Of a stretch of DNA of 35,077 nt, positions 8,377 to 31,877 are shown in pieces. The translations under genes were made by a program, and so were the position numbers. The stretch comes from Syntrophus gentianae (GTDB lineage: Bacteria > Desulfobacterota > Syntrophia > Syntrophales > Syntrophaceae), in NCBI RefSeq assembly GCF_900109885.1, contig NZ_FOBS01000031.1, positions 1 to 35,077 of the forward strand. Reading direction: 5' to 3'. Every line of letters begins with the position of its first letter. The first letter of the stretch is position 1. A model generated the notes under the pieces. It searched no databases. It saw only the letters and a list, made by a program, of their open reading frames with translations, and had not been told where the DNA came from.

Positions 8377-8883
8377 TCATTCCGTGGTAATCGGAATTTT
8401 CTTGCCCTTGGTCTGGGCTTCCTCCGTTTTGGGAAGTTTGACGGTCAGGACCCCGTTTTTAAAGGTGGCCTCTACCTTTTCCAGGTTGATTCCCTTGGGC
8501 AGAGGAATCACCCGGTGGAAGGAACCATAGGTCCGTTCCAGGCGGTAATAGTCCTTTCCTTTATCTTCCTGTTCCTCTTTCTTTTCGCCTTTGAGGGTTA
8601 CGGCATCGTCGGAAACCAGGACTTCCACGTCTTTTTCATCAATTCCGGGAATTTCGGCCTTGATGGTGAATTCTTCGTCACTTTCCCGTACGTCGACGGA
8701 GGGTGAAAAACCGGCATAACGATCTTCCAGGGCACCAAAAGGCTCAAGATCGAACCCCCGGAAGAAATCATCGAAAAGCCGATTCATTTCCCTCTGCAGC
8801 GAATAGAAGGGATGCTCATCCTCACGCTTTGCAGGCGCTTCCGTTCTCCTCTTCAGGGAAGGCAAAAGACTTTTGATTGCCAT
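8377..8883 (-). CDS. Small heat-shock protein, Hsp20/alpha-crystallin family (third gene of hsp20 operon)
   Basis: A 168-residue ATP-independent holdase. The alpha-crystallin domain spans about residues 60-152, with the late consensus FKNGVLTVKLPK. A C-terminal IPI (I-x-I) oligomerisation motif lies in KKIPITTE. The N-terminal arm is amphipathic (SLQREMNRLFDDFFRGFD), which is typical. An acidic/basic loop EKKEEQEDKGK lies before the dimerisation strand. AAGGAGGAACAAATC leads into the ATG. It follows the second hsp20 by 37 nt and is probably cotranscribed from the promoter at 9841-9869. Confidence 0.95.
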   Translation of the reverse strand: MAIKSLLPSLKRRTEAPAKREDEHPFYSLQREMNRLFDDFFRGFDLEPFGALEDRYAGFSPSVDVRESDEEFTIKAEIPGIDEKDVEVLVSDDAVTLKGEKKEEQEDKGKDYYRLERTYGSFHRVIPLPKGINLEKVEATFKNGVLTVKLPKTEEAQTKGKKIPITTE

Positions 8884-8920
8884 GATTTGTTCCTCCTTCT
8901 TAGAGTCTGTTCTTTATTCT

Positions 8921-9325
8921 TTATCCTGCCTTGATGGCTATTTTCTTTGCCTGAACAGGGGCAGCCTTGCGCAGGACGACGCGAAGCACGCCATTTTTGA
9001 CGGATGCTTCAATGTTCCCCCTGTCTACGTCTTCTGAAAGGGTAAAGGTCCGCTGATAATCGCCGACATCGTATTCCGCGTAGTACAAGCGGTGTTCCTG
9101 AGGCTCAACCTGCTCGACCGTTCCCTGAATTTTCAGGACGTTTTTATCCAGGATGACTTCAACCGAATTTTCATCAACGCCGGGGACATCCGCGATCAGC
9201 ACCATCGTTTCAGGCGTTTCGTAAATATCCACTTTTGGTGTAAAAATCTTCGTGTTCTTCGTCCGTTCCGATACGGCGGGTTCTGCCGCCGGCTGTTTTT
9301 CAAACTGTTTATATTCCTGAACCAT
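8921..9325 (-). CDS. Small heat-shock protein, Hsp20 family, short form (second gene of hsp20 operon)
   Basis: A 134-residue Hsp20. The alpha-crystallin domain begins at TPKVDIYETPETMVLIADVPG and ends in the consensus VKNGVLRVVLRK, with an IAI motif in KKIAIKAG at the C-terminus. The N-terminal arm is only about 28 residues and polar (YKQFEKQPAAEPAVSERTKN), unlike the amphipathic arms of its neighbours. It may therefore form smaller assemblies or mixed oligomers. GAAGGAGGG precedes the ATG. It lies 17 nt after the first hsp20. Confidence 0.94.
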   Translation of the reverse strand: MVQEYKQFEKQPAAEPAVSERTKNTKIFTPKVDIYETPETMVLIADVPGVDENSVEVILDKNVLKIQGTVEQVEPQEHRLYYAEYDVGDYQRTFTLSEDVDRGNIEASVKNGVLRVVLRKAAPVQAKKIAIKAG

Positions 9326-9342
9326 GAGAAAACCCTCCTTCG

Positions 9343-9786
9343 CTATTCCGATTTGATGGCTATTTTACGGGGCTTGTCTTCTTCCGCCCGGGGCAGATGG
9401 ATCTGCAGGATTCCCTTTTCATAGTTTGCTTCAACCTTTTCCGGATTGACGTTGAAGGGCAACTGCAGCCCCCGGCTGAAACGGCCGAAACCCCTTTCCT
9501 GACGATGATAACGGCATCCTTCCTCGAGTTGCTCCGGTTCTCTCGATCCCTTGATGTACAGAAGGTCGCCCTTTGTGGTAATCTCAATGGCGTCGGGATC
9601 CATTCCGGGGAGCTCAGCCCTGACAACCACATCGTCCTCACCGATCCATACATTGACCGGCGGGTAATGCTGGTCATACTCCTGAGTCAGACCTGAAAAA
9701 AACCGATTCATGTCTTTATGAAAGCGGGTCATTTCAGGAAACATATCCAACATCCTTCCCATTCTCCAAATTCCCGGTCCAAACAT
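9343..9786 (-). CDS. Small heat-shock protein, Hsp20 family (first gene of hsp20 operon)
   Basis: A 147-residue Hsp20 beginning MFGPGIWRMGRMLDMFPEM. The alpha-crystallin domain runs from about PPVNVWIGEDDVVVRAELPG to YEKGILQIHLPR, with an IAI motif in RKIAIKSE. The frame stays open to 9855, but the ATG at 9786 is chosen. AGGAGG lies 8 nt before it, and the predicted promoter (9841-9869) sits inside the extra upstream stretch. It heads a three-gene operon of divergent paralogues. Confidence 0.93.
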   Translation of the reverse strand: MFGPGIWRMGRMLDMFPEMTRFHKDMNRFFSGLTQEYDQHYPPVNVWIGEDDVVVRAELPGMDPDAIEITTKGDLLYIKGSREPEQLEEGCRYHRQERGFGRFSRGLQLPFNVNPEKVEANYEKGILQIHLPRAEEDKPRKIAIKSE

Positions 9787-9840
9787 TTCGTCTTCCTCCT
9801 TCAATAGACTGATATCGTTCAGGATAAATCCTTTTGGCAC

Positions 9841-9869
9841 TAATATAGTCACCAAACTTTAGTTGTCAA
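9841..9869 (-). promoter_or_regulatory. hsp20 operon promoter (heat-shock candidate)
   Basis: On the minus strand TTGACAA (9863-9869), 15 nt, then TATATTA (9841-9847). The -35 is a full consensus match and the -10 (TATATT) matches five of six. The predicted start is about 48 nt before the first hsp20 ATG. Spacing and boxes match the groES promoter. Confidence 0.7.
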
Positions 9870-10007
9870 GGCAGAGAAAAAAAGGGCGTTTCCTTTCCTC
9901 TGTGGCAGCTTGTGCCGGGTTGTCGCGATGAAGGATCGCCGTTGGGAGGGAGTAGGCGATTAAAACCGGGAAAGGGAATTTGTCAAGGGGTCGACAGAGA
10001 GGTCCGG

Positions 10008-11735
10008 TCAGCGAAGGCCGGAGTTTAAGTGGGAGCGTTCGAGCGAAGCCATGATCACCGTGAGATTCCCGGGAATGTTATCGATATTGTAAATGTCCGG
10101 ACGGAAGTTGAGTTTTCCCTCTTGATCAATCCAGACCGTCTTATAAACGATATGGACGGGAACAACTTTGGGAAGGATCAAGGTCTTGTTCTTTCCCTTT
10201 TGAATCTCGGCCTGAATGTTCCGGCTCGACCAGCGATTGTCGGACGAACTTTGCAGCAGATAGGCGGCAAGATCCACGGGCTTTTCAATGCGGATGCAGC
10301 CATGACTGAAACTGCGCCGGCTCTGGGCGAAAAGCCTCCGCGTGGGGGTGTCATGGATGTAGATGTCGGCTTCGTTGGAAAAGACGAACTTGACGCGACC
10401 GAGAGGATTGTCCGGTCCTGGTTCCTGTCTCAGAAAGTAGGGAAATCTCTCGGTGGAATAGCGGGACCAGTTGATGGTTTCCGGAGAAATGGGTCGGTTT
10501 TGGTAATTGCCGCCCGCAAAAACCTTCATCTTCTTTCCCGAAAGGTATTGGGGGTTCTTCTTGAGCTTGGGAAGATATTCCTCCACGGCGATGGTCTTGG
10601 GCACCCGCCAGTAGGGATTCAATTCGACCGAGGTGACCCGGCTGCTTAAAAGATTCGTTCGTTTGTTGGTCTTGCCGACGATGGCCCGGATGTTCATGAC
10701 CACGTTCTGGTCTTCCACCACTTCAAGGTTGAAGGCCGGGATATTGATCAGCAGGTGACGATTTCCCAGTTCTGTGGGCAGCCAGCGCAGCCGGTCCAGA
10801 TTGACGGCAACCTGACAGATGCGGACTTCCACGGGGACGTTCAGATGCCGCAACGTGGGCGGACCGACGATGCCGTCTTGCCGCAGGCCATGTTGCCGCT
10901 GGAAGGAACGAACGGCGATTTCCAACTCCCGGTCAAACACGTCATTGGGGATTGCCTGCGAAGTGTTCGGCGACCCTGAAGTCATCATCAGCCGGTTTCT
11001 CAGCAGATTGACCCGATAATCACGCATTCCTTTTTTCAGCGGGCGGCCATCCGGGATAACAGGCCAGCCTCCATTTTCCGCGATATCGATGTAACTATTG
11101 AGTATTTCGTGAAGTTTCCGGTAATCGTAAAACCGGGGAGCCAGATCGTTAAGGGTCCCTTCCAAGTTTTTGCTTTCCAGGGCATTGACCAGCGTTTTGA
11201 CGAGATCGGTCTGTCTGGGTTTGTAGACCCAGCCGGGATATTGCTTTTGATGATCTGCCCTGCCGCCGGCAAAATGAGCGGCATAGGAAAAAAACGCCTC
11301 CGTCAGCAGCAGATCAAGATCTGCCAGACGTTCAGGGTTTACGGGGTGATCCAGCTCCTTTTCCCGGGAAATCGCCGTCATCATGGTTTCGATGCGCTCG
11401 ATGCCGTAATCCTGGGGGCACAACCCTTCCCGATAGGACCGCTTCAAAATCCGCAGCAGCGTAACTGCCTGCGCATCCGGTCCTTCTTCCCCAATCCAGG
11501 CCGGCAGACCCTTCCGTTCCGAATAAAAGGTTTTCAGCAGCCGGGCGGTATCCTCATCGTTGTAGGCAAAGTTCAACAGAGATCTTCCCGTTGCGGTTGA
11601 GACCCTCTGCTGGATACGATCTGTGGCCGTATCGGACGGGTTGCTTGCCGACAGCATTCCTGTGGTGATGAACCAAGTCAGGGCTGCCCCGATCAGGATC
11701 AGAATCTGGATAATATGGACTCTCTTCAACCTCAC
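10008..11735 (-). CDS. YcbB/LdtD-type L,D-transpeptidase with peptidoglycan-binding domain
   Basis: A 575-residue periplasmic enzyme predicted to form 3-3 peptidoglycan crosslinks or attach partners to meso-diaminopimelate. An uncleaved signal-anchor lies at about residues 8-28. An LdtD-type scaffold domain follows, then a peptidoglycan-binding motif at about 272-297 (VRSFQRQHGLRQDGIVGPPT). The YkuD catalytic domain contains H461 (YIHDTP) and SHGCIR with the nucleophile Cys480. Overall order and length resemble E. coli LdtD (615 residues). The start is GTG at 11735 with AAGGA upstream. It lies 73 nt after the FHA gene on the same strand, so read-through from the kinase-phosphatase-FHA operon is plausible. 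Confidence 0.92.
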   Translation of the reverse strand: MRLKRVHIIQILILIGAALTWFITTGMLSASNPSDTATDRIQQRVSTATGRSLLNFAYNDEDTARLLKTFYSERKGLPAWIGEEGPDAQAVTLLRILKRSYREGLCPQDYGIERIETMMTAISREKELDHPVNPERLADLDLLLTEAFFSYAAHFAGGRADHQKQYPGWVYKPRQTDLVKTLVNALESKNLEGTLNDLAPRFYDYRKLHEILNSYIDIAENGGWPVIPDGRPLKKGMRDYRVNLLRNRLMMTSGSPNTSQAIPNDVFDRELEIAVRSFQRQHGLRQDGIVGPPTLRHLNVPVEVRICQVAVNLDRLRWLPTELGNRHLLINIPAFNLEVVEDQNVVMNIRAIVGKTNKRTNLLSSRVTSVELNPYWRVPKTIAVEEYLPKLKKNPQYLSGKKMKVFAGGNYQNRPISPETINWSRYSTERFPYFLRQEPGPDNPLGRVKFVFSNEADIYIHDTPTRRLFAQSRRSFSHGCIRIEKPVDLAAYLLQSSSDNRWSSRNIQAEIQKGKNKTLILPKVVPVHIVYKTVWIDQEGKLNFRPDIYNIDNIPGNLTVIMASLERSHLNSGLR

Positions 11736-11808: not shown

Positions 11809-12513
11809 CTATTCTTCCTTGATGTAGAACTGCATCTTCAGGCCCCCCACTTCCACAAGATCTCCGTCTTTCAGGTCATACCGGGATGTCATGTCCTGTC
11901 CGTTGATCTTCATGGATTTTCCCCCTGAGGGATTGATGAAGTACCCTTCTTTCCTCCGGTTGACCAAGGCGGCCACTTTGGGGGCAAAAAAGCCTTTGAG
12001 ATGGATGCCCGCCCCATCTTCCTTTCCGATGGTCGTCACCCGCTCCTTCAGGAGATAATCCCTTTTTTCCGTGGATCCATTCACGACCACGAAGCCGCCC
12101 AGGACGTCGGGCTTGGTCTTTCCCGTGGAAGCCAGAAGATTTCGCTGATCCTGCGGAGCAATCACCATGGTTTCATCCATGGATCTTCCCCTCAGGGTCG
12201 CATTTCTGGGATCCACTTCCCTGTTCCTTTCGGAAATCACTTCCAAGGTGTGGATTCCGACAAGAACCACGTCGCCATTGAATATTTCACTTTTGAAAAC
12301 TTTTTGTCCGTTGACATACGTTCCATTGAGGCTGTTCGTATCCTCAATGTAGAGCGTATCCCCTTCGTGTGTGAATTTTGCATGATGTCCGGAGACAGCC
12401 TGATTGTCAATTACAATATCATTGTCCGGCTTTCTGCCGATGGTTATGACATCTTGCTCAAGGGGGATTTCTTTGACAACGGCTCCTTTAAATTTTAATA
12501 AAACCTCCGCCAT
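11809..12513 (-). CDS. FHA-domain protein with a second, degenerate FHA-like domain
   Basis: A 234-residue cytoplasmic protein. The first FHA domain (about 20-92) has the phosphothreonine-pocket residues: GRKPDNDI (26-33), SGHH (41-44) and NSLNGTYVNG (60-69). The linker holds a DETMVIAP segment with Thr115. The C-terminal part (about 138-232) repeats the fold loosely (VTTIGKED, INPSGGKSMKINGQ, DLKDGDLVEVGG) but lacks the Ser-x-x-His and Asn-Gly pocket, so it probably does not bind pThr. AGGAGG lies before the ATG. The gene starts 3 nt after the PP2C stop, making it the likely reader of kinase products. Confidence 0.9.
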   Translation of the reverse strand: MAEVLLKFKGAVVKEIPLEQDVITIGRKPDNDIVIDNQAVSGHHAKFTHEGDTLYIEDTNSLNGTYVNGQKVFKSEIFNGDVVLVGIHTLEVISERNREVDPRNATLRGRSMDETMVIAPQDQRNLLASTGKTKPDVLGGFVVVNGSTEKRDYLLKERVTTIGKEDGAGIHLKGFFAPKVAALVNRRKEGYFINPSGGKSMKINGQDMTSRYDLKDGDLVEVGGLKMQFYIKEE

Positions 12514-12516
12514 TCT

Positions 12517-13326
12517 TTACCTCCTGAACCATCTAAAAAATTTGAGAACCGACGCAAACCGGCGCTTCCTGGCAAGGTAACCGGCAACAACGGTGATATT
12601 GTCTTTTCCGCCCTTCATATTGGCCATGTTGATCAGTTCCTGGCACGCTATCGAGGGATTATCAAGAGACGTTGCCATGAGCAAAATGTCTCGATCGGAA
12701 ATCATTCCGGACAAACCGTCGCTGCAGAGAATCAGCACATCGCCTTCCGCCAGCGTCATTTCGTCCAGATCGACATCAACAAATGGAGCAATACCGAGCG
12801 CCCTTGTCAGTACATGCCGGATCGTGGACCGTTCCGCTTCTTCTTTGGTAATCAGGTCATGCTTAACCTGCTCATATACCAATGTGTGATCGTCGGTCAA
12901 CTGTTCAATTTCTCCCGCCCTGACCAGATAGATCCGACTGTCTCCCACGTGGGCGATGCTCAGTTGTCTGCCCTGGATCATGATTGCCGCAAGGGTTGTT
13001 CCCATGCCGTGCAGTTGAGGGTTGCTCTTCGCCGCTTCATGAATCGCCCTGTTCGCCAGTTGAATCGCGGAACAAAGCTGATTCGTTGCATCGGAATAGT
13101 TTTCATTGTAACAGGACGCGATCAGGGGCGCGTTGCCTTCGCTGGCTTTTTGAAAATAATCCCGCAGGACATCCACCGCCATCTTGCTGGCAATTTCTCC
13201 AGATGCATGCCCTCCCATTCCATCCGCTACCGCCAGAATCCCCTGCTTGGGATCCACAAAGAAATCATCTTCATTGTTCGGTCGGATGAGCCCTTTATCG
13301 GTTTGGCCGGCAATATTCAGATTCAA
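12517..13326 (-). CDS. PP2C-family Ser/Thr phosphatase (Stp/PrpC type)
   Basis: A 269-residue metal-dependent phosphatase. Motifs in order: GLIRPNNEDD (Glu19-Asp20), ADGMGGHASGE (metal ligands Asp35-Gly36), HVGDSRIY (127-133), CSDGLSG (Asp203) and GGKDNITVV (Asp242). These are the metal ligands of bacterial PP2C enzymes. An unusual basic-aromatic tail (RKRRFASVLKFFRWFRR) could be an amphipathic membrane anchor, which would place it near the membrane kinase; that is inference. The start is TTG at 13326 with AGGAG 6 nt upstream. The gene begins 9 nt after the CHASE2-kinase stop and probably reverses that kinase. Confidence 0.94.
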   Translation of the reverse strand: MNLNIAGQTDKGLIRPNNEDDFFVDPKQGILAVADGMGGHASGEIASKMAVDVLRDYFQKASEGNAPLIASCYNENYSDATNQLCSAIQLANRAIHEAAKSNPQLHGMGTTLAAIMIQGRQLSIAHVGDSRIYLVRAGEIEQLTDDHTLVYEQVKHDLITKEEAERSTIRHVLTRALGIAPFVDVDLDEMTLAEGDVLILCSDGLSGMISDRDILLMATSLDNPSIACQELINMANMKGGKDNITVVAGYLARKRRFASVLKFFRWFRR

Positions 13327-13335
13327 GATCGTCTC

Positions 13336-15792
13336 CTAAATTTTGAGATAGGCGGCAAGGTCATCAACGATCTCACCTCCGTGCTGATAGCGTTTATCCG
13401 CGTCCTTTTCCATGGCCCTGTTCACGATGTCCGCAAAAAGTTCCGGGAGGTGAGGAGCCCTTTCCCTGAGCGGCTTGGGATTCGTCGAGGTGATTTTGTA
13501 CATCAGGGTGCCGATGCTGTCTCCTTGAAAAGGCTTCTCCCCGGTCAACATCTCATAAAAAACGACCCCCAGTGAAAAAAGGTCTGAACGTCCATCGATC
13601 TTCTGTCCGGAGATCTGCTCCGGCGACATGTAACTCGGCGTGCCAAGGACGGCGCCTGTCTGAGTCTTGGAAGAGCTCATCACGCGGGCGATGCCGAAAT
13701 CAGCGACCCGGATTTCACCGTTCTTCAGGATCATGATATTCGAAGGCTTGATGTCCCGGTGCACGACGCCGTTTTTGTGGGCATAGTCCAGGGCATTGGC
13801 CACCAGGCTTACAATTCGGACGACTTCCGGGATGGGCAGGAGGCTGTCCCTGCCGCAATATTTCATGAGATCCGTTCCGTCCAGCAGCTCCATCGCCATG
13901 TAGGCAAGATCGGAATCTTCCCCCACATCGTAAATGGTGACAATATTGGGATGGGACAGTTTTCCTGCCGCTTCGGCTTCCAGGAAAAATCTCTTCTTGG
14001 TTTCCAGGAGCCGTTCGTCCTCAATTTCTTCATAGCGCAGGGTCTTGATCGCCACTTCCCTGTTGATCTTCGGGTCCTTGCCCAGATAAACCGTTCCCAT
14101 GGCTCCACGCCCGAGTTCCCGGCTGATCTCGTAACGTCCGATGGTCGGCTTGATCTCGGTATCCTGCAGAATGACGGTATCATCCTTTTTGCTCCCGGCG
14201 GGTTGTTGGTTGACGGTGTCTCCCGCCAGCTTCATCCGCTGGATCCGGTCATTGATATCCTTGAAACTGCCAGCCTGGGCAATGTGATTATAAACCGCAA
14301 CGGCCTTCGTGAACAGCCGCTTTCTTTCGAAGTCAAGTCCCAGATTGTACAGAAGCTCTTTCATGGCCTTGTCCTCGACGGGACACTTCCGGAAGGTTTC
14401 AAAGGCCATGTCCAGCATCCCCTGTCCTTGAAAGGAAAGGCCGAGCATTTTATTGGCTTCCACGCTGTCCGCCTCGATGCTGACCTTTGGCTTTTCCGAA
14501 AAGAGATATTTCCGCGATGCCATAGCGAGATAACCGAGGATCAGAACCAATGCGGGATAGACAGGTTTTATCCAGTATCCCTGGCCGGCAAGGAGATAAA
14601 CGGAGAATCCGGCCCAGAGGATCAGCAGAGTCAGCGCGGCGGCGGCACTGTAAAGGGGCTTGAGCCTTGAGGTAACCAGGATGACAAAGCATCCGAACAG
14701 GACCATGACTGCCAGTTCAAGCCATACGGCCCATGCAGGCCGCACGATGTGCTCCTGGTGAAGGATGTTGTCCACCGTGCTGGCGATTCCGATCCAGGAA
14801 GGGGTGTCAGGTCCGGCGGAGGTAGCCTGAAAAGTTCCCAGACCCGTAGCGTTCAGGACGATGATGACAATCTTGTTTTTAAACACGGCGGGTCTTACCT
14901 TATGATTGAGGACGTCCACAAAGGAATAAATCGGGATATTCCAGTTGTAGTTGATCAGCATTCGATGCTCATCAAAGGTGGGAATGCGGGCGTTGCCGAT
15001 TTCTATCCCCTTGTTCAGACGAAGATGGTCAAGGTTGTATTTGAGAAACTTCAGGGTCAGTTGCAGCGCAAAGGAAGGGTAATAGCGATTTTCATAATTG
15101 ATAAGCAGCGGTTCGCTGCGCACGGCGCCATCCTTATCTGCTGCTACGTTGACATGACCGAGGGCCAAAGCAGGTTCCGCGAATTGAGCGATCGGCGAGA
15201 TCAGCTCCCGGGCGGTCAAACTGGGGGCCGTTGTGTCCAGTCTGACCGAGTTCCTGGTTAGATAATCCGGCAGGGCTTCAACGGCTGCGAGGGAGCGTCC
15301 CAGGGCGAAGGTTAAAGGCAGAACGACCCGATGGCTCCGGGCAATCGATTCAGCCAGCAGGGTATCATTATCCAACCGTCCCTCTGCTTCTTTAAGGCTT
15401 GTGTAAAGCTGTCCGCTTCGGATGCCTTTCGCTTCCAATCCGCTGAGAAGATTCCGGATCTCGGTCAATCCCTGGTTATGGTCATTTTCGGAAAAGGGGA
15501 TATCGATCCCGATCACTCTGGTTTCATAATCATGAAGCATGCCGATCATCTGGGCGATGTATCCTCTGGACCAGGGCCAGCGGCCAATAGCGGTGATGCT
15601 GTTATTATCGATTCCGATGACAACGACATTGGACGCAGGGGCTTTATCCCTGAAAGAAGAAACAGTGTCGTAGGCCTTGTATTCCAGCTGTTCCGTCTGG
15701 CTCCATTGCAGGGCATAGGCGCCGGCCAGCAGAAGGACGAGAAAACAAACAATGCTCAAATCAATAACAATTGAATTTTTAAACCGAAGCAT
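13336..15792 (-). CDS. CHASE2-domain transmembrane Ser/Thr protein kinase
   Basis: An 818-residue membrane receptor kinase. An N-terminal helix (10-30) leads into a CHASE2 extracellular sensor (about 35-345), recognisable by WPWSRGYIAQMIGML, VIGIDIPFSE and IASTVDNILHQ. Three helices follow (about 352-374, 381-403, 408-427). Next come a TPR-like helical linker (445-520) and a Hanks-type kinase (553-816): G-loop GRGAMG (561-566), Lys583, HRD (678-680), DFG (698-700) and SPE in place of APE. All catalytic residues are present. CHASE2 senses an unknown periplasmic cue. AGGAGG precedes the ATG. It is the first gene of the kinase-PP2C-FHA operon. Confidence 0.94.
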   Translation of the reverse strand: MLRFKNSIVIDLSIVCFLVLLLAGAYALQWSQTEQLEYKAYDTVSSFRDKAPASNVVVIGIDNNSITAIGRWPWSRGYIAQMIGMLHDYETRVIGIDIPFSENDHNQGLTEIRNLLSGLEAKGIRSGQLYTSLKEAEGRLDNDTLLAESIARSHRVVLPLTFALGRSLAAVEALPDYLTRNSVRLDTTAPSLTARELISPIAQFAEPALALGHVNVAADKDGAVRSEPLLINYENRYYPSFALQLTLKFLKYNLDHLRLNKGIEIGNARIPTFDEHRMLINYNWNIPIYSFVDVLNHKVRPAVFKNKIVIIVLNATGLGTFQATSAGPDTPSWIGIASTVDNILHQEHIVRPAWAVWLELAVMVLFGCFVILVTSRLKPLYSAAAALTLLILWAGFSVYLLAGQGYWIKPVYPALVLILGYLAMASRKYLFSEKPKVSIEADSVEANKMLGLSFQGQGMLDMAFETFRKCPVEDKAMKELLYNLGLDFERKRLFTKAVAVYNHIAQAGSFKDINDRIQRMKLAGDTVNQQPAGSKKDDTVILQDTEIKPTIGRYEISRELGRGAMGTVYLGKDPKINREVAIKTLRYEEIEDERLLETKKRFFLEAEAAGKLSHPNIVTIYDVGEDSDLAYMAMELLDGTDLMKYCGRDSLLPIPEVVRIVSLVANALDYAHKNGVVHRDIKPSNIMILKNGEIRVADFGIARVMSSSKTQTGAVLGTPSYMSPEQISGQKIDGRSDLFSLGVVFYEMLTGEKPFQGDSIGTLMYKITSTNPKPLRERAPHLPELFADIVNRAMEKDADKRYQHGGEIVDDLAAYLKI

Positions 15793-16027: not shown

Positions 16028-17818
16028 TCAATGCATCAGGACATTCAAGTCATGAATGATGGACTGGTAGTCCTGATATCTGTCATCGGGATTCTTTGCC
16101 ATCATTTTTCCGATAATATCCGACAGCTCACTGGAGAGGATGGGATTTTTCTTCTTCAGGGGGACGAGTTCCTCGTTCAGGTGTTTAAACAGGATGGCTT
16201 CAACACATTCTCCGTCGAAGGGAGGCGCCCCTGCAAAAACGTTGTAAAATGTAGCCCCTAATGAATAGATATCGCTGCGGCAGTCTAATGGCCGACCCAT
16301 AATGCAATCAGGAGAGGCGAAAAGGGGTGACCCGACCAGACCCTCGGGTTTTCTTTTTTTGTTGCCGCTGCCGTCATTTACAATGGAAACGCCGAAATCC
16401 ACGACCTTCAACATGCCGTTATCGTCAATCATGATGTTTGCGGGCTTGATATCGCGATGAACGATGTTCTGTCGACTGACAAAATCGAGTGTCCGGCAGA
16501 TGGTGATGAAGTGTTCCAATCCCTTGGCGGTATTGAGGTTATTGTGATCCTTGATGAAATCGGCCAGGGTTCCGCCATTGATCAGTTCCATGGCAAAGTA
16601 GAGGACATCGTCCATCTGATCGATGTAATAGATTTGTGCGATGTTGGGATGTGTCAGACGGGAAACCAGGCGCGCCTCCTTGACAAACATATCCCTGTAT
16701 GACGCAATGGAAGACAGATTGTAAGAGATCACCTTCAAGGCCACATTGCGCTCAAGGACAACATCCCATCCTTTAAAAACCCCTCCCATGCCTCCGGCGC
16801 CGATAAAGGACACCGCCTTGTAATTTCCCAGCTGTTTTCCGACAAGACTGCGATAGAATTTAATTTCCAGCGCCTTTTCGCTCCGAGGTTCACCGAAATT
16901 GTTGAAAAGCGGATCGGCTGGGGCAGGCTTGTTGTCATTCATCCGGATGATCATATCGGCGTTGATCTTTTTCTCCACGGGTATTTCATCGACGACAGGA
17001 GATTTTCTGGCAGTGGGCTTCCTTTCGTTTTCCTTCAGGTTGACAATGTAATCGTATGTTTCGATCCAATCGATGGACTGTTCCGTCTCTACCCCGATCT
17101 CTGCCGAAAGCTGATGGTTGTTGATGGAGATATGCCGAATATGACTTTCGATAACGCATGTTCCGGAAGGCAGCGGCACCCGGATGTAGAGAACCATGCC
17201 GAGTCGTCCGAGCAGGGATGTCTCGATCAGCAATCCCTGCTTGCTGATATTTTTTACCCTGCCAGGCAGCCAGAGAATGGAATCGCGGGATAGTTCAAGG
17301 TTCACTATCTGCTTGGGGATTATTCTTTCGCTTTTCCGGCACTCGACCGGCGTCGCAGAGACGGCCTCCAAGCGTGGGGTAAAAGATTGATGAAGCCCTT
17401 CATTCTGCATGACCGAGGTTCTTGCCTTGACGGCCGTTGCAGGAAGCATTTCGCCGATGCGTTCGATCAGGACCGTTGGGGTCTCACCGTTCGGGGTATA
17501 GACGATGAAATCGGCGGCTCCCATACCGAATGCCTTACCGGCGCTCTTTTGATCGTGAATCGGCACAAAAAACACAAAAGGGATCTTTTTCAGGAAGGGA
17601 GTGTTCTTGAGAAACTCAAGGAATTCATATCCGTTGGAATCATCCAGCTCGCTGTCGCTGATAATGAGCGCCACAGAATTGTTGGAAAGCAGATTCATGG
17701 CGCTGCTCATGGCGGTGGCCGTAAGGACGGGGTATCCGGCCTCGAGCAGAGATTTGCAGACCGTGTTCAGAAATTTCTTGTCACGGTTGACTAAAAGAAT
17801 GTAATTTTTAAGGTCCAT
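16028..17818 (-). CDS. Pseudo-receiver-PilZ-Ser/Thr protein kinase
   Basis: A soluble three-domain signalling protein, 596 residues from the ATG at 17818. Residues 5-125 are a receiver-like domain. The putative acceptor Asp55 remains (IISDSEL), but the acidic pocket is NRD, and the conserved Thr/Ser and Lys are missing, so normal phosphorylation is doubtful. Residues about 155-260 are PilZ, with both c-di-GMP motifs: RKSER (Arg161, Arg165) and NISKQG (Asn190-x-Ser192-x-x-Gly195). Residues 332-590 are a Hanks kinase with Lys362, HRD (454-456) and DFG (474-476). The glycine loop is GAGGMGG. The frame extends to a TTG at 17854 and an ATG at 17842, but neither has a Shine-Dalgarno; 17818 has a weak GAG and fits the first beta strand. 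Confidence 0.88.
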   Translation of the reverse strand: MDLKNYILLVNRDKKFLNTVCKSLLEAGYPVLTATAMSSAMNLLSNNSVALIISDSELDDSNGYEFLEFLKNTPFLKKIPFVFFVPIHDQKSAGKAFGMGAADFIVYTPNGETPTVLIERIGEMLPATAVKARTSVMQNEGLHQSFTPRLEAVSATPVECRKSERIIPKQIVNLELSRDSILWLPGRVKNISKQGLLIETSLLGRLGMVLYIRVPLPSGTCVIESHIRHISINNHQLSAEIGVETEQSIDWIETYDYIVNLKENERKPTARKSPVVDEIPVEKKINADMIIRMNDNKPAPADPLFNNFGEPRSEKALEIKFYRSLVGKQLGNYKAVSFIGAGGMGGVFKGWDVVLERNVALKVISYNLSSIASYRDMFVKEARLVSRLTHPNIAQIYYIDQMDDVLYFAMELINGGTLADFIKDHNNLNTAKGLEHFITICRTLDFVSRQNIVHRDIKPANIMIDDNGMLKVVDFGVSIVNDGSGNKKRKPEGLVGSPLFASPDCIMGRPLDCRSDIYSLGATFYNVFAGAPPFDGECVEAILFKHLNEELVPLKKKNPILSSELSDIIGKMMAKNPDDRYQDYQSIIHDLNVLMH

Positions 17819-17899
17819 AGATCTCGATGTGAAGATATCCATCTGGATAAACAATACTTTTCAGCGTACAGCGATCCTGCATCGGGCCGTTGAACAAAC

Positions 17900-18745
17900 T
17901 CAGGGCATGGTCATTTTCGGATTGATACAGACGTGCAAGGCAAAAGACTGATCGCCTACTTGAAAGATCAGTACGGCGACAGAGGTGTTCTGCAGATAGC
18001 CGATCTGGTGGCCGGGGCCGACGACGACCGAAGGCAGTGTGATTTCAAAATGATAGGGCTTACCGACAAAATCCTTTTTTGTGGAACCGCTGATCATGTT
18101 GATGATTTCACTGACCCCGTCATGAATCAATTCCGCGTCGATTGCTCCCGCGTCCATCCCCATCATTTTAGCAACAATCGTTTTTGCCAGCTCCCAATAA
18201 AAGGTGACCACGAGCGTTCCTTCTGCATTTCCGGAAAGCCCCATGATACCGGAAACGTCACCGAATATCCGGATGGTGTTTGAGAAGTAGACTTTCTTGA
18301 ATTCCACCTCTATTCCCGCCATGGTCTCCATGATATGGCAGGTATTTTTGATAAAGGGATCCAGATATTCAAATTCTTCTGTAAGAGGCTCTCGATTGGG
18401 AATCAGGTAGCCGTTGATGATATGTTTGAAGGCCGGCAAGGGATCTGACAGAGAAAGCACTTCCGTTGCTCCGGCGATCATGTAAGGCTGCGACGGGATA
18501 TCTTTTTTCCGGGCATGGATGAGAATGATGGGGATATTCTGAAAGTTGCATGCATAGCGAAGTTTGCAGATCTGCTGTACGACGTGTTCCTGATTTTTGC
18601 CCATCTCCAGAATGATCATCTGGTAGCCGTTGAGGGCGATATTGTCATGAAATGGCTCATATTGAATTTCGTCATTTTCTCCCAACAGCCCGGAAACAAC
18701 TTTTTCGACCTTTGGGCTGCAATCAATTCCAAGTATTCTCTTCAT
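17900..18745 (-). CDS. Pseudo-receiver-CheX-like phosphatase fusion
   Basis: A 281-residue protein. The first ~115 residues resemble a receiver fold (ILGIDCSPKVEKVVSGLL; MIILEMGK where the acceptor Asp should be), but the acceptor is replaced by Glu and the pocket is lost. The C-terminal half is CheX-like: DPFIKNTCHIMETMAGIEV opens the domain, and SEIINMISG carries the E-x-x-N pair (Glu213, Asn216) that CheC/CheX/FliY phosphatases use to dephosphorylate CheY-P. The ATG at 18745 is chosen because GGAG lies 9 nt upstream; an ATG at 18760 has no such site. It lies between a canonical CheY gene and the PilZ kinase on the same strand, so CheY-P is the likely substrate. Confidence 0.8.
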   Translation of the reverse strand: MKRILGIDCSPKVEKVVSGLLGENDEIQYEPFHDNIALNGYQMIILEMGKNQEHVVQQICKLRYACNFQNIPIILIHARKKDIPSQPYMIAGATEVLSLSDPLPAFKHIINGYLIPNREPLTEEFEYLDPFIKNTCHIMETMAGIEVEFKKVYFSNTIRIFGDVSGIMGLSGNAEGTLVVTFYWELAKTIVAKMMGMDAGAIDAELIHDGVSEIINMISGSTKKDFVGKPYHFEITLPSVVVGPGHQIGYLQNTSVAVLIFQVGDQSFALHVCINPKMTMP

Positions 18746-18864
18746 AGAATTAATCTCCATTTTTCTATTTCTGGTAAAAAAAAGCTGGATGGCCTGAGAA
18801 ATTCTGAGGCTTTGATCCTGGTCTAAATGAACTGTGTCTTTGATAACAATACGTTTTCACGATT

Positions 18865-19236
18865 CTAATGATTATCCAGCACAGAATGAATGGCATCCAA
18901 CAGTTTCTCCGCAGTAAAGGGCTTTGTGAGATAACCCTGAGCGCCGGCACTGAGCGCTTCCTGGATTCTGTCGTCTTCAGACTCCGTTGAGATCATCAAC
19001 ACAGGAATCTTTTTAAAACGATCATCCCTTCGCATTTTTTTTATAACGTCAAGGCCGCTCAAGATAGGCATATTCCAGTCAAGGAGCACCAAATGGATCT
19101 CGCTGGCGTTGGCTTCCAGAATATTCATGGCTTCCTGACCGTTACCAGCCTGAACAGCCTCGAAACCAATCAACGCGGTTGTCTTTTCGATAATGCCGCG
19201 TATTAAACGTGAATCATCTGCAACGATCGCTTTCAT
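18865..19236 (-). CDS. Single-domain response regulator (CheY-like)
   Basis: A 123-residue stand-alone receiver with all signature residues: Asp7-Asp8, acceptor Asp53 in LLDWNMP, Thr84 in MISTES and Lys105 in LTKPF. No output domain is present, so it works by protein-protein contact, as CheY does. GGGGG precedes the ATG. It is the first clear gene of the minus-strand signalling block, 119 nt before the pseudo-receiver-CheX gene, which is a plausible phosphatase for it. No histidine kinase is in the window. Confidence 0.93.
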   Translation of the reverse strand: MKAIVADDSRLIRGIIEKTTALIGFEAVQAGNGQEAMNILEANASEIHLVLLDWNMPILSGLDVIKKMRRDDRFKKIPVLMISTESEDDRIQEALSAGAQGYLTKPFTAEKLLDAIHSVLDNH

Positions 19237-19780: not shown

Positions 19781-20269
19781 ATGAACCGGTGGGAAAACAT
19801 GATTCCAACAGCATCTTCACTTGAGGAACGGGCTGAATTACTGGAGCGATGTCAATGGGTTCCGGAATTGAGCTGGCGACAGATCGAGAATCTGGCCCGT
19901 TATCTCCAGGGGGCGAAAACGGCGAGGGGTGGTACGGTTATCCGTGAAGGTTCCCGGGACGCTTTCATGTGCATTGTTGTGGAAGGGAAGGTTCACATCA
20001 TCAAGGAGGATATTGAAGGGAAGGAAAAGTTGCTTTCTGTTGTAAGCAAGGGGCAGACTTTCGGCGAGATGTCCCTGTTTGATGGGGAACCGCGCTCCGC
20101 TTCGGTCAGGGCTGCGGAAGATACGACCATGCTGATCCTGACCCTGGCGAATCTCCAGCGGCTGATGGAAGAGGCCCCCATCCTCGGAGCAAAAATCCTC
20201 TACAAGCTGGGCCGGTTGATGAGTCAGAGGCTGCGGATGACCAGCGGTAAACTGGTGGATTACATCTGA
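19781..20269 (+). CDS. Stand-alone cyclic-nucleotide-binding domain protein
   Basis: A 162-residue protein with one Crp-like cNMP-binding domain (about 35-150). The phosphate-binding cassette FGEMSLFDGEPRSASV (94-109) holds the Arg-Ser pair typical of cAMP binding. There is no helix-turn-helix or other output domain, so it is not a complete transcription factor. It may be a ligand-responsive partner for another protein. GGGAG lies 6 nt before the ATG. It converges with a receiver gene and is divergent from the signalling block. Confidence 0.88.
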   Translation: MNRWENMIPTASSLEERAELLERCQWVPELSWRQIENLARYLQGAKTARGGTVIREGSRDAFMCIVVEGKVHIIKEDIEGKEKLLSVVSKGQTFGEMSLFDGEPRSASVRAAEDTTMLILTLANLQRLMEEAPILGAKILYKLGRLMSQRLRMTSGKLVDYI

Positions 20270-30072: not shown

Positions 30073-30900
30073 ATGGATATAAGGATGTTGCGCCAAAAGG
30101 TGGAAAGGATCGAGATGCTGCCCACGATTCCCGATGTGATCAAGCGTCTTTCGGTCATCGTCGGAAATCCGAAAATCTCTCTCAGTGAAATCAGCAGCTT
30201 TATTTCCAGTGATCCGGCACTCACCAGCAGAATCCTGAAGATGGTCAATTCCGCCATTTTTGGCTTTCCGGGAAGGATCTCCTCCGTTACCCATGCGGTG
30301 ACGCTCCTGGGTTTCAATGTGATCAAGGGGCTGCTGATGGGGGTCACGGTTCTGGATCTCATGCAGACGGCGATGGTCGGTCTTCGGGAGCATTCCGTCG
30401 GCTGTGCCATAGCGGCGCGGACGATCGCGGAAATGAAGGGGATGAAGAATACGGAGGATGCGTCTGTGGGCGGCCTGCTTCATGATCTCGGCAAGGTGAT
30501 CCTGCTGCTTCAATTTCCCCAGGATTATAAATTGGTCCTGGAAGCGACGGACCAGAAGGGGATGCTGATCTTCAATGCCGAGAAGGCTCACTTCTCTGAA
30601 ACACATGCGGCGGTCGGTTTGTGGCTTGCTGAAAAATGGAAGTTCCCCAAAAATCTGACGGACGTCATTGCCTACCACCATAAACCCCAACTGGCGAAAA
30701 ATGCCCCTGTGGATACCGCCATCGTCCATCTGGCGGACATTCTGGTCAGGACCATGGGGTTTGGTTATGCCGGCGATGCCTTTGTCCCGGCAGTTTCGCC
30801 CGCTTCCTTTGAACAGCTCAATCTCAGCGAAGAGGAGATTCGGGAAGTCCTGAGGAACATCGAATCCATGCGGGGCATGGGGGATGATCCGGCATGGTGA
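30073..30900 (+). CDS. HDOD-domain signalling protein
   Basis: A 275-residue cytoplasmic protein. The HDOD fold occupies about 10-210: LPTIPDVIKRL at the start, ISSDPALTSRILKMVNSAIFG, then GGLLHDLGK (His137-Asp138) and AYHHKP (202-203). Several HD-phosphohydrolase histidines remain (107, 137, 178, 202-203), more than a pure scaffold needs. HDOD proteins usually act as output or scaffold modules in second-messenger and stress signalling. The gene overlaps the following pseudo-receiver-GGDDF gene (30894), so the two products are translationally coupled and likely work together. Confidence 0.92.
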   Translation: MDIRMLRQKVERIEMLPTIPDVIKRLSVIVGNPKISLSEISSFISSDPALTSRILKMVNSAIFGFPGRISSVTHAVTLLGFNVIKGLLMGVTVLDLMQTAMVGLREHSVGCAIAARTIAEMKGMKNTEDASVGGLLHDLGKVILLLQFPQDYKLVLEATDQKGMLIFNAEKAHFSETHAAVGLWLAEKWKFPKNLTDVIAYHHKPQLAKNAPVDTAIVHLADILVRTMGFGYAGDAFVPAVSPASFEQLNLSEEEIREVLRNIESMRGMGDDPAW

Positions 30901-31877
30901 ATCGAAAAACCATTGTAATCATCGGCAGAAATCCTGTCATGGTTTCCCTCCTGGAACAGAAACTGCGCGCCTCCCATTCCATCGCCACCTTTAACCGGAT
31001 TCAGCAGGCCCTGGACTTTCTCTACACGAACCTGCCGGATCTGGTGATCATCGAATGGCAAAAGGAGGACGACGCGACGGCAGACGCCCTGCGGACGTTC
31101 AAGGCCGAGCCCCTTTTCAGCCAGCTTCCCTTTCTCGCGATCCTGGACGAACCAGGGTCTGCCGTGAATTGGGATATCCTCCCCGTCGAGGATTACCTCC
31201 GCAGGACGGATCTCGAAGCGGAGGCGATCAACCGCGTGGAGCTCTGCCTCCTGCGGTCCGAGCGGTTGATCGAGATAAACCCCCTGACCCGGCTGCCGGG
31301 AAATATCTCCATCAACCGTGAGGTCCAGGCGCGGCTCGATCGGGATGGGGAGTTTGACCTGGCCTATGCCGATCTGGATCAGTTCAAACCCTTCAACGAC
31401 AAATATGGTTTCAGCCGGGGCGATGAGGTGCTCCGGGTTATGGGGCGCCTTATTCTCAGCATTGTTCAAAGCCGGCAGCCCCAGGGAAGCTATATCGGAC
31501 ATATCGGGGGCGATGATTTCATTTTCCTCATGGATGTCGGTCTTGCAGAGTCTGCATCGGAAGCCATTATCGAGGCTTTTGACCAGATTATCCCGACTTT
31601 TTATGATGCCGAGGACCGGGGGCGGGGCTATATCGAATCTATAGACCGGCAGGGAAAGACCAGGCATTTCCCCTTGATGACGGTTTCCATCGGCGGAGTG
31701 ACCCATCGCCGCAGCCGGCGGCTTTCCCATTACGGGGAGCTGACGGAGGCAGTTTCCCAGATGAAGAAATACGCCAAATCTTTCCCCGGCAGCTGCTTCC
31801 GCTCGGATAAACGTTCCGCTGTTCCGGCAGATTACCCTGCCACCCTTTCTTCCATTCCCTCCCATGAAATTGGTTAA
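30894..31877 (+). CDS. Pseudo-receiver-GGDEF protein with a GGDDF motif
   Basis: A 327-residue protein. The N-terminal ~115 residues have a receiver outline but lack the phospho-pocket (IGRNP where Asp-Asp should be; IIEWQ with Glu54 at the acceptor site). A GGDEF domain follows from about 125: LTRLPGN, AYADLDQFKPFNDKYGFSRGDEVL with its metal and GTP-contact residues, and GGDDF (205-209) in place of GG(D/E)EF. No RxxD inhibitory site precedes it. The conservative E-to-D change may lower or preserve diguanylate cyclase activity. It overlaps the HDOD gene by 7 nt, indicating coupled expression. Confidence 0.88.
   Translation: MVNRKTIVIIGRNPVMVSLLEQKLRASHSIATFNRIQQALDFLYTNLPDLVIIEWQKEDDATADALRTFKAEPLFSQLPFLAILDEPGSAVNWDILPVEDYLRRTDLEAEAINRVELCLLRSERLIEINPLTRLPGNISINREVQARLDRDGEFDLAYADLDQFKPFNDKYGFSRGDEVLRVMGRLILSIVQSRQPQGSYIGHIGGDDFIFLMDVGLAESASEAIIEAFDQIIPTFYDAEDRGRGYIESIDRQGKTRHFPLMTVSIGGVTHRRSRRLSHYGELTEAVSQMKKYAKSFPGSCFRSDKRSAVPADYPATLSSIPSHEIG

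Follow-up and report, generated by a model that had tools for sequence, protein, structure and literature searches.

Pkn1 (MXAN_1467) of Myxococcus xanthus, the deletion of which reduces sporulation, is a Ser/Thr kinase with a PilZ domain in the same chain (PMC8316039, PMC8844925) and in this respect resembles the protein considered here. The comparison is one of descriptions. The passages on Pkn1 in these two papers place its PilZ domain at the C-terminus, devoid of the c-di-GMP motifs, and they describe kinase and PilZ only, with no CheY or CheX partners named. PixA (MXAN_1087) of the same organism combines a receiver with a PilZ domain having all the c-di-GMP residues. It differs in that the PilZ domain comes first and the receiver, with its phosphorylation residues, second, and the account of it mentions no kinase domain (PMC8316039).

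Pairs consisting of a single-domain CheY adjoining a CheX with the ExxN motif are known from chemotaxis systems, and one cheX homologue has been reported in each of three Geobacter species (PMC2577667). CheY-like and CheX-like ORFs are also adjacent in three genomes of the current analysis (G175, G349 and G371), with no kinase motif flagged in these loci, of only about 3.8 kb. The nearest solved counterpart of the kinase domain itself is PknB, the best chain match (E-value 3.5e-47). The NCBIfam model of PASTA kinases scores 256.5 bits, under its cut-off of 450, and, unlike kinases of the PknB/StkP type, the protein carries a receiver and a PilZ domain in front of the kinase, and Pfam detects no PASTA domain in it.

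The window, which is the whole stretch of 35,077 nucleotides analysed from the genome of Syntrophus gentianae (3.7 Mb in 71 contigs), encodes on one strand a CheY, a CheX-type protein with a receiver-like front (REC*-CheX) and, as the third gene, a Ser/Thr kinase preceded in the same chain by a degenerate receiver (REC*) and a PilZ domain (Table 1). We read these genes, with a probability of roughly 0.45, as a chemosensory-type cassette with a kinase output, in which CheY and CheX would set the kinase and the PilZ domain, through c-di-GMP, would act as a second gate.

Table 1. Features of the three-gene locus, in coordinates of the window
Feature	Position	Strand	Basis and remarks
CheY-type single-domain response regulator, complete phosphorylation site	18865..19236	(-)	Pfam, alignment
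REC*-CheX, receiver-like N-terminus and CheX phosphatase domain (17963-18256), ExxN kept	17900..18760	(-)	Pfam, alignments, profile comparison
REC*-PilZ-Ser/Thr kinase gene	16028..17818	(-)	ORF, ATG start, 596 aa; Pfam; homologues
Degenerate receiver, residues 7-106	17501..17800	(-)	Pfam, alignment; D55 kept, acidic pair, Ser/Thr and Lys positions replaced
PilZ domain, residues 161-245	17084..17338	(-)	Pfam
RxxxR motif RKSER, residues 161-165	17324..17338	(-)	alignment
NxSxxG motif NISKQG, residues 190-195	17234..17251	(-)	alignment
Hanks-type kinase domain, residues 333-582	16073..16822	(-)	Pfam, chain match, residues

All the three domains of the kinase protein score above their Pfam cut-offs, the receiver with 37.5 bits (cut-off 30.2), the kinase with 157.9 (31.7) and the PilZ domain (PF07238) barely, with 23.6 bits in the full protein and 28.4 for the excised stretch against 22.5. 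The original prediction of a single chain with receiver, PilZ domain and kinase is therefore borne out, and its reading of the residues agrees with ours for the kinase (Lys, HRD and DFG kept), for the receiver (Asp kept, the rest of the site lost) and for the two PilZ motifs. The nearest named relatives of the protein, 82 and 79% identical, are found in two Syntrophus metagenome-assembled genomes. The same domain order has been recovered in 16 genomes, the window's own counted, and a 17th homologue (L122, in G561) ends at a contig edge before the kinase; in another (L060, in G082) the contig stops inside it. Since the order recurs in 16 genomes the fusion is not due to chance, and an assembly error was dropped as an explanation on the same ground.

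The gene has a patchy distribution. With the first 267 residues as query, 8 carriers were obtained among 155 genomes of the class, and with the PilZ stretch 6 among 395 genomes of the phylum, the window's own genome being included both times. Profile searches added the order of G356, where 7 of 85 genomes carry the gene (three of the seven were already among the carriers of the phylum search), and the order and class of G399, where it is present in 2 of 3 and 2 of 17 genomes respectively, both already known. All searches pooled, there are 17 distinct carriers in three orders. A single-contig genome of the same genus (G001) gave no match, either with the whole protein at E ≤ 1e-60 or with the N-terminal part at E ≤ 1e-12. 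Other phyla were covered by a short-word scan, in which 33 of 35 loci from other collections match only from query residue 275 onwards, a range that takes in the kinase and no more than some of the linker. In eight of nine such relatives inspected by eye no receiver or PilZ domain lies ahead of the kinase; the ninth (L042) is partly masked. Among plasmids 888 records match and none covers more than 80% of the query.

Conservation is highest in the kinase, whose mean identity to the window's sequence is 0.69 as against 0.55 for the receiver and 0.51 for the PilZ domain. Its catalytic residues (K362, E381, H454-R455-D456, N461 and D474-F475-G476) are complete, and the Lys, Glu, HRD, Asn and DFG positions are kept in all the 16 homologues that reach the kinase, L122 being left out of the kinase counts and the kinase tree on account of its contig end. 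These features speak against a protein that mainly tethers CheX to a complex by means of an inactive or marginal kinase domain. Such a role might be read into the activation segment, which is GSPLFASPD in the window's protein and has forms such as GTPLYMSPE in relatives from other phyla; on balance we hold it to be very improbable.

The receiver in front of the kinase matches a profile of the cassette CheY proteins with a probability of 97.6%. In the profile alignment D55 corresponds to D53 of CheY, V85 to S83 and Y107 to K105, and N11-R12, placed by eye outside the aligned part, stand where CheY has the acidic pair D7-D8. The residue set of a phosphorylatable receiver (acidic pair, Asp, Thr/Ser and Lys) is thus reduced to the Asp. 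The replacements are themselves conserved, with N11, R12 and V85 present in every one of the 17 homologues; D55 is found in 15 of them.

The fixed partners of the kinase, overlooked in the original prediction, are the strongest clue to its function that has been found. A CheY gene followed by a CheX-type gene lies directly upstream on the same strand at all the 16 loci with enough DNA, the window included. In G310 the arrangement is split over contigs, the kinase opening one (L071) and the CheY-CheX pair lying on another, where the adjoining ORF (L075:156-698) looks by eye like CheD. The phosphorylation site of CheY (D7, D8, D53, S83, T84 and K105) is kept in 11 of 11 aligned sequences and the ExxN motif of CheX in 12 of 12, these counts being drawn from the 16 cassette loci. 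The CheX domain (PF13690) scores 64.2 bits against a cut-off of 27, and its motif is in register with the E..N of five solved chains of CheX/CheC type; its E and N are presumably the catalytic residues. Among the 395 phylum genomes, full-length CheX relatives of at least 52% identity are confined to the six that carry the kinase, the other matches listed being at most 41% identical. This co-occurrence does not amount to six independent events, because the six carriers partly share their ancestry. The 16/16 linkage, the co-occurrence and the residue conservation are all counted in favour of the cassette reading, and the presence of the same two chemotaxis-type genes ahead of the kinase suggests a chemotaxis-like pathway feeding it.

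Compared with the CheY-CheX pairs of chemotaxis, the CheX of the cassette has a receiver-like N-terminus and is followed by a Ser/Thr kinase gene. The evidence for this N-terminus is moderate and comes from profile comparison: the CheX front matches the cassette CheY profile with a probability of 69% (E-value 4.5e-5 over 43 columns; PilZ control 0.1%), and the Pfam scan detects no receiver in it. Against the receiver-PilZ profile of the kinase the probability is only 1.7%, a result that counts against our reading.

The gaps between the genes in the window are 104 bases from CheY to CheX (18761-18864) and 81 bases from CheX to the kinase (17819-17899). The CheY-CheX gap values of the other minus-strand loci include the stop codon, and the value of -214 at L059 stems from an over-long start. 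Scans for promoters and terminators gave no more than shuffled sequences did, so that the single transcript we infer for the three genes follows from their order and spacing alone.

Of direct relevance to a chemosensory input is the locus L122, where a che operon on the same strand directly precedes the cassette, with the end of a CheA gene at the contig start followed by genes for CheW, an MCP, two CheR and CheB. At L071 genes for a flagellin-type protein, FlgK, CheB, a single receiver, an HDOD protein, CheD and CheR lie on the opposite strand next to the kinase. Both sets of neighbours support the cassette reading, as does a CheW search of 13 carriers, which gave matches in 12 (G561, G588, G592 and G599 lie outside this set). 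These two are the only ones of the 17 loci beside which other chemosensory or flagellar genes were recognised, the rest having been judged by eye from ORF starts and by comparison with the window, and this is counted on the other side, together with the carrier G082 (82% complete), which gave no CheW match, and the two of 13 carriers in which flagellin is missing (11 have matches). CheW and flagellin matches also occur in G001, which has no such kinase at the thresholds used; the same genome gave three CheX matches, one of them in a frame of 311 amino acids.

The PilZ domain is the least certain of the three. The PilZ model was matched at E ≤ 0.01 by 7 of 12 homologous N-terminal parts, by 11 of 15 homologous PilZ stretches and, among four further full or cut homologues, by L120 and not by L119, L121 or L122. 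A profile of the 15 stretches retrieved nothing at E ≤ 1 from solved structures. When the whole protein was modelled from 30 alignment rows, the kinase was predicted confidently and the receiver moderately, with pLDDT under 40 in every block of residues 161-250; the PilZ domain modelled alone (3 rows) has a mean pLDDT of 49.1, too poor to judge a c-di-GMP site. These poor models are counted against our reading. The possibility that the motifs arose by chance has been dropped, as both RKSER and NISKQG fall within the PilZ match.

The complete c-di-GMP motif, RxxxR with [DN]xSxxG, is found in the window's protein and nine further homologues, hence in 10 of 17, and is incomplete in the remaining seven. 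By position, both arginines are present in 14 homologues, the Asn in 16, the Ser in 10 (it is replaced in the other 7) and the Gly in all 17. One or both arginines have been lost in L058, L060 and L070. In L060 masked letters stand ahead of the motif, and in L070 the second arginine is absent in both alignments, the first being at the motif in one alignment only. The three are not mutual sisters on the kinase tree, though support is weak at several of its nodes and L058 and L060 branch off one after the other; this placement points to loss on two occasions at the least and probably on three. With the full motif in only 10 homologues out of 17 and an arginine lost in three, sensing of c-di-GMP, plausible for the window's protein, would not be a fixed trait of the family.

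The capacity to make the messenger can be attributed to the carrier genomes as far as GGDEF matches tell, which number eight in the window's genome and are present in nine of nine genomes searched, eight of these being carriers; this is counted for the cassette reading. The window's genome also has seven PilZ matches. Of the six PilZ loci other than the one described, both motifs occur in L001, L002, L003 and L005, the four for which the right frame was assigned (L004 and L006 are outside this count). With both motifs complete and eight GGDEF matches in the genome, gating of the window's kinase by c-di-GMP is possible. The complete motifs and the abundance of GGDEF and PilZ matches would equally suit the original prediction, namely a stand-alone Hanks kinase with c-di-GMP as its main input and CheY and CheX as mere neighbours. 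That account appears unlikely to us, because the linkage to CheY and REC*-CheX, at 16 of 16 loci, is as strict as the domain architecture itself, and the motif is incomplete in 7 of 17 homologues.

The opposite view, that the PilZ domain senses c-di-GMP nowhere in the family and instead has a structural role or binds proteins, with CheY and CheX alone running the kinase, draws on the arginine losses and on the seven replacements of the Ser. It draws also on S177, R178 and W183 (window 17270-17290), which lie outside the motif, do not vary among the 17 homologues and outrank the c-di-GMP arginines; among 101 columns of the PilZ region R161 ranks 17th, R165 22nd and S192 44th. This ranking is also counted against our own reading. 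From the literature, Pkn1 provides a PilZ kinase without the motifs (PMC8316039, PMC8844925), and the part of PMC8316039 on PilZ proteins of M. xanthus reports that PlpA has the c-di-GMP residues yet does not bind, and that PixB binds without the Ser; motif and binding would on this account be loosely tied. Set against a non-sensing domain is the retention of both arginines in 14 of 17 homologues and of the Asn in 16, despite identities of only 32-85% between the PilZ stretches of 14 relatives and that of the window. We regard a PilZ domain without sensing function in the whole family as somewhat doubtful.

The cassette may be pictured as working in the following way. A CheA-type histidine kinase would charge the cassette CheY, and the REC*-CheX encoded next door would take the phosphate off it. 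The degenerate receivers on CheX and on the kinase would serve as docking surfaces and not as phosphorylation sites, the state of CheY and CheX would set the Ser/Thr kinase activity, and the level of CheY~P would be read through the degenerate receiver of the kinase. The PilZ domain, lying between receiver and kinase, would provide the second gate; in members with intact RxxxR and NxSxxG, the window's included, it would in all likelihood bind c-di-GMP and so switch the kinase from one state to another, and in some relatives this input would have been lost and the cassette retained. The kinase would then phosphorylate its substrates, and a CHASE2-type kinase, a PP2C phosphatase and an FHA protein encoded downstream in the window, L054, L068 and L069 are candidates for a shared network. 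The full scheme, in which phosphate signalling through CheA, CheY and CheX converges with c-di-GMP on one Hanks-type kinase by way of two degenerate receivers and a PilZ domain, is put forward tentatively, as possible rather than probable.

The PilZ-kinase fusion (Pkn1), the receiver-PilZ fusion (PixA) and CheY-CheX pairs are already in print or known, and the new part would be the union of the three in one conserved cassette. Neither a receiver-PilZ-kinase protein nor a cassette of CheY, CheX and a Ser/Thr kinase was found by literal terms in titles and abstract starts of the open-licence literature, which is weak evidence of absence. The original statement that the exact architecture was not known as characterised in this lineage stands to that extent; its wider novelty is reduced by Pkn1, as described in the papers cited above, in which a PilZ domain and a Hanks kinase are already joined. 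Should this reading be correct, the cassette would be a small, defined junction of two-component or chemosensory signalling, c-di-GMP and Ser/Thr kinases, systems that are usually studied apart, and the natural arginine losses of L058, L060 and L070 beside relatives keeping the residues provide ready-made comparison proteins.

Other signalling genes have been observed around the cassette. Downstream of the kinase in the window (11809-15792) the CHASE2-Ser/Thr kinase, PP2C phosphatase and FHA genes assigned by Pfam stand in a row, and by likeness to the window's proteins the order is repeated in L054 and, interrupted by an additional small kinase, in L068 and L069. They were considered as fixed members of the cassette and rejected, being found besides the window only at these three loci, though some loci end earlier. 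In L119 the gene directly upstream of the cassette CheY (9171-10736) encodes a fusion of a kinase with a cyclic-nucleotide-binding domain, and Pfam assigns a stand-alone cyclic-nucleotide-binding protein to window 19781-20269, near the cassette on the opposite strand. At window 30073-31877 an HDOD gene precedes one that matches part of the GGDEF model (positions 5-101 of 161); HDOD-like genes are also present close to the kinase in L071 and, judged by likeness, close to the cassette in L067. Three small ORFs at window 8377-9855, which resemble one another and look like Hsp20, have relatives in L067 that adjoin the cassette CheY on the opposite strand.
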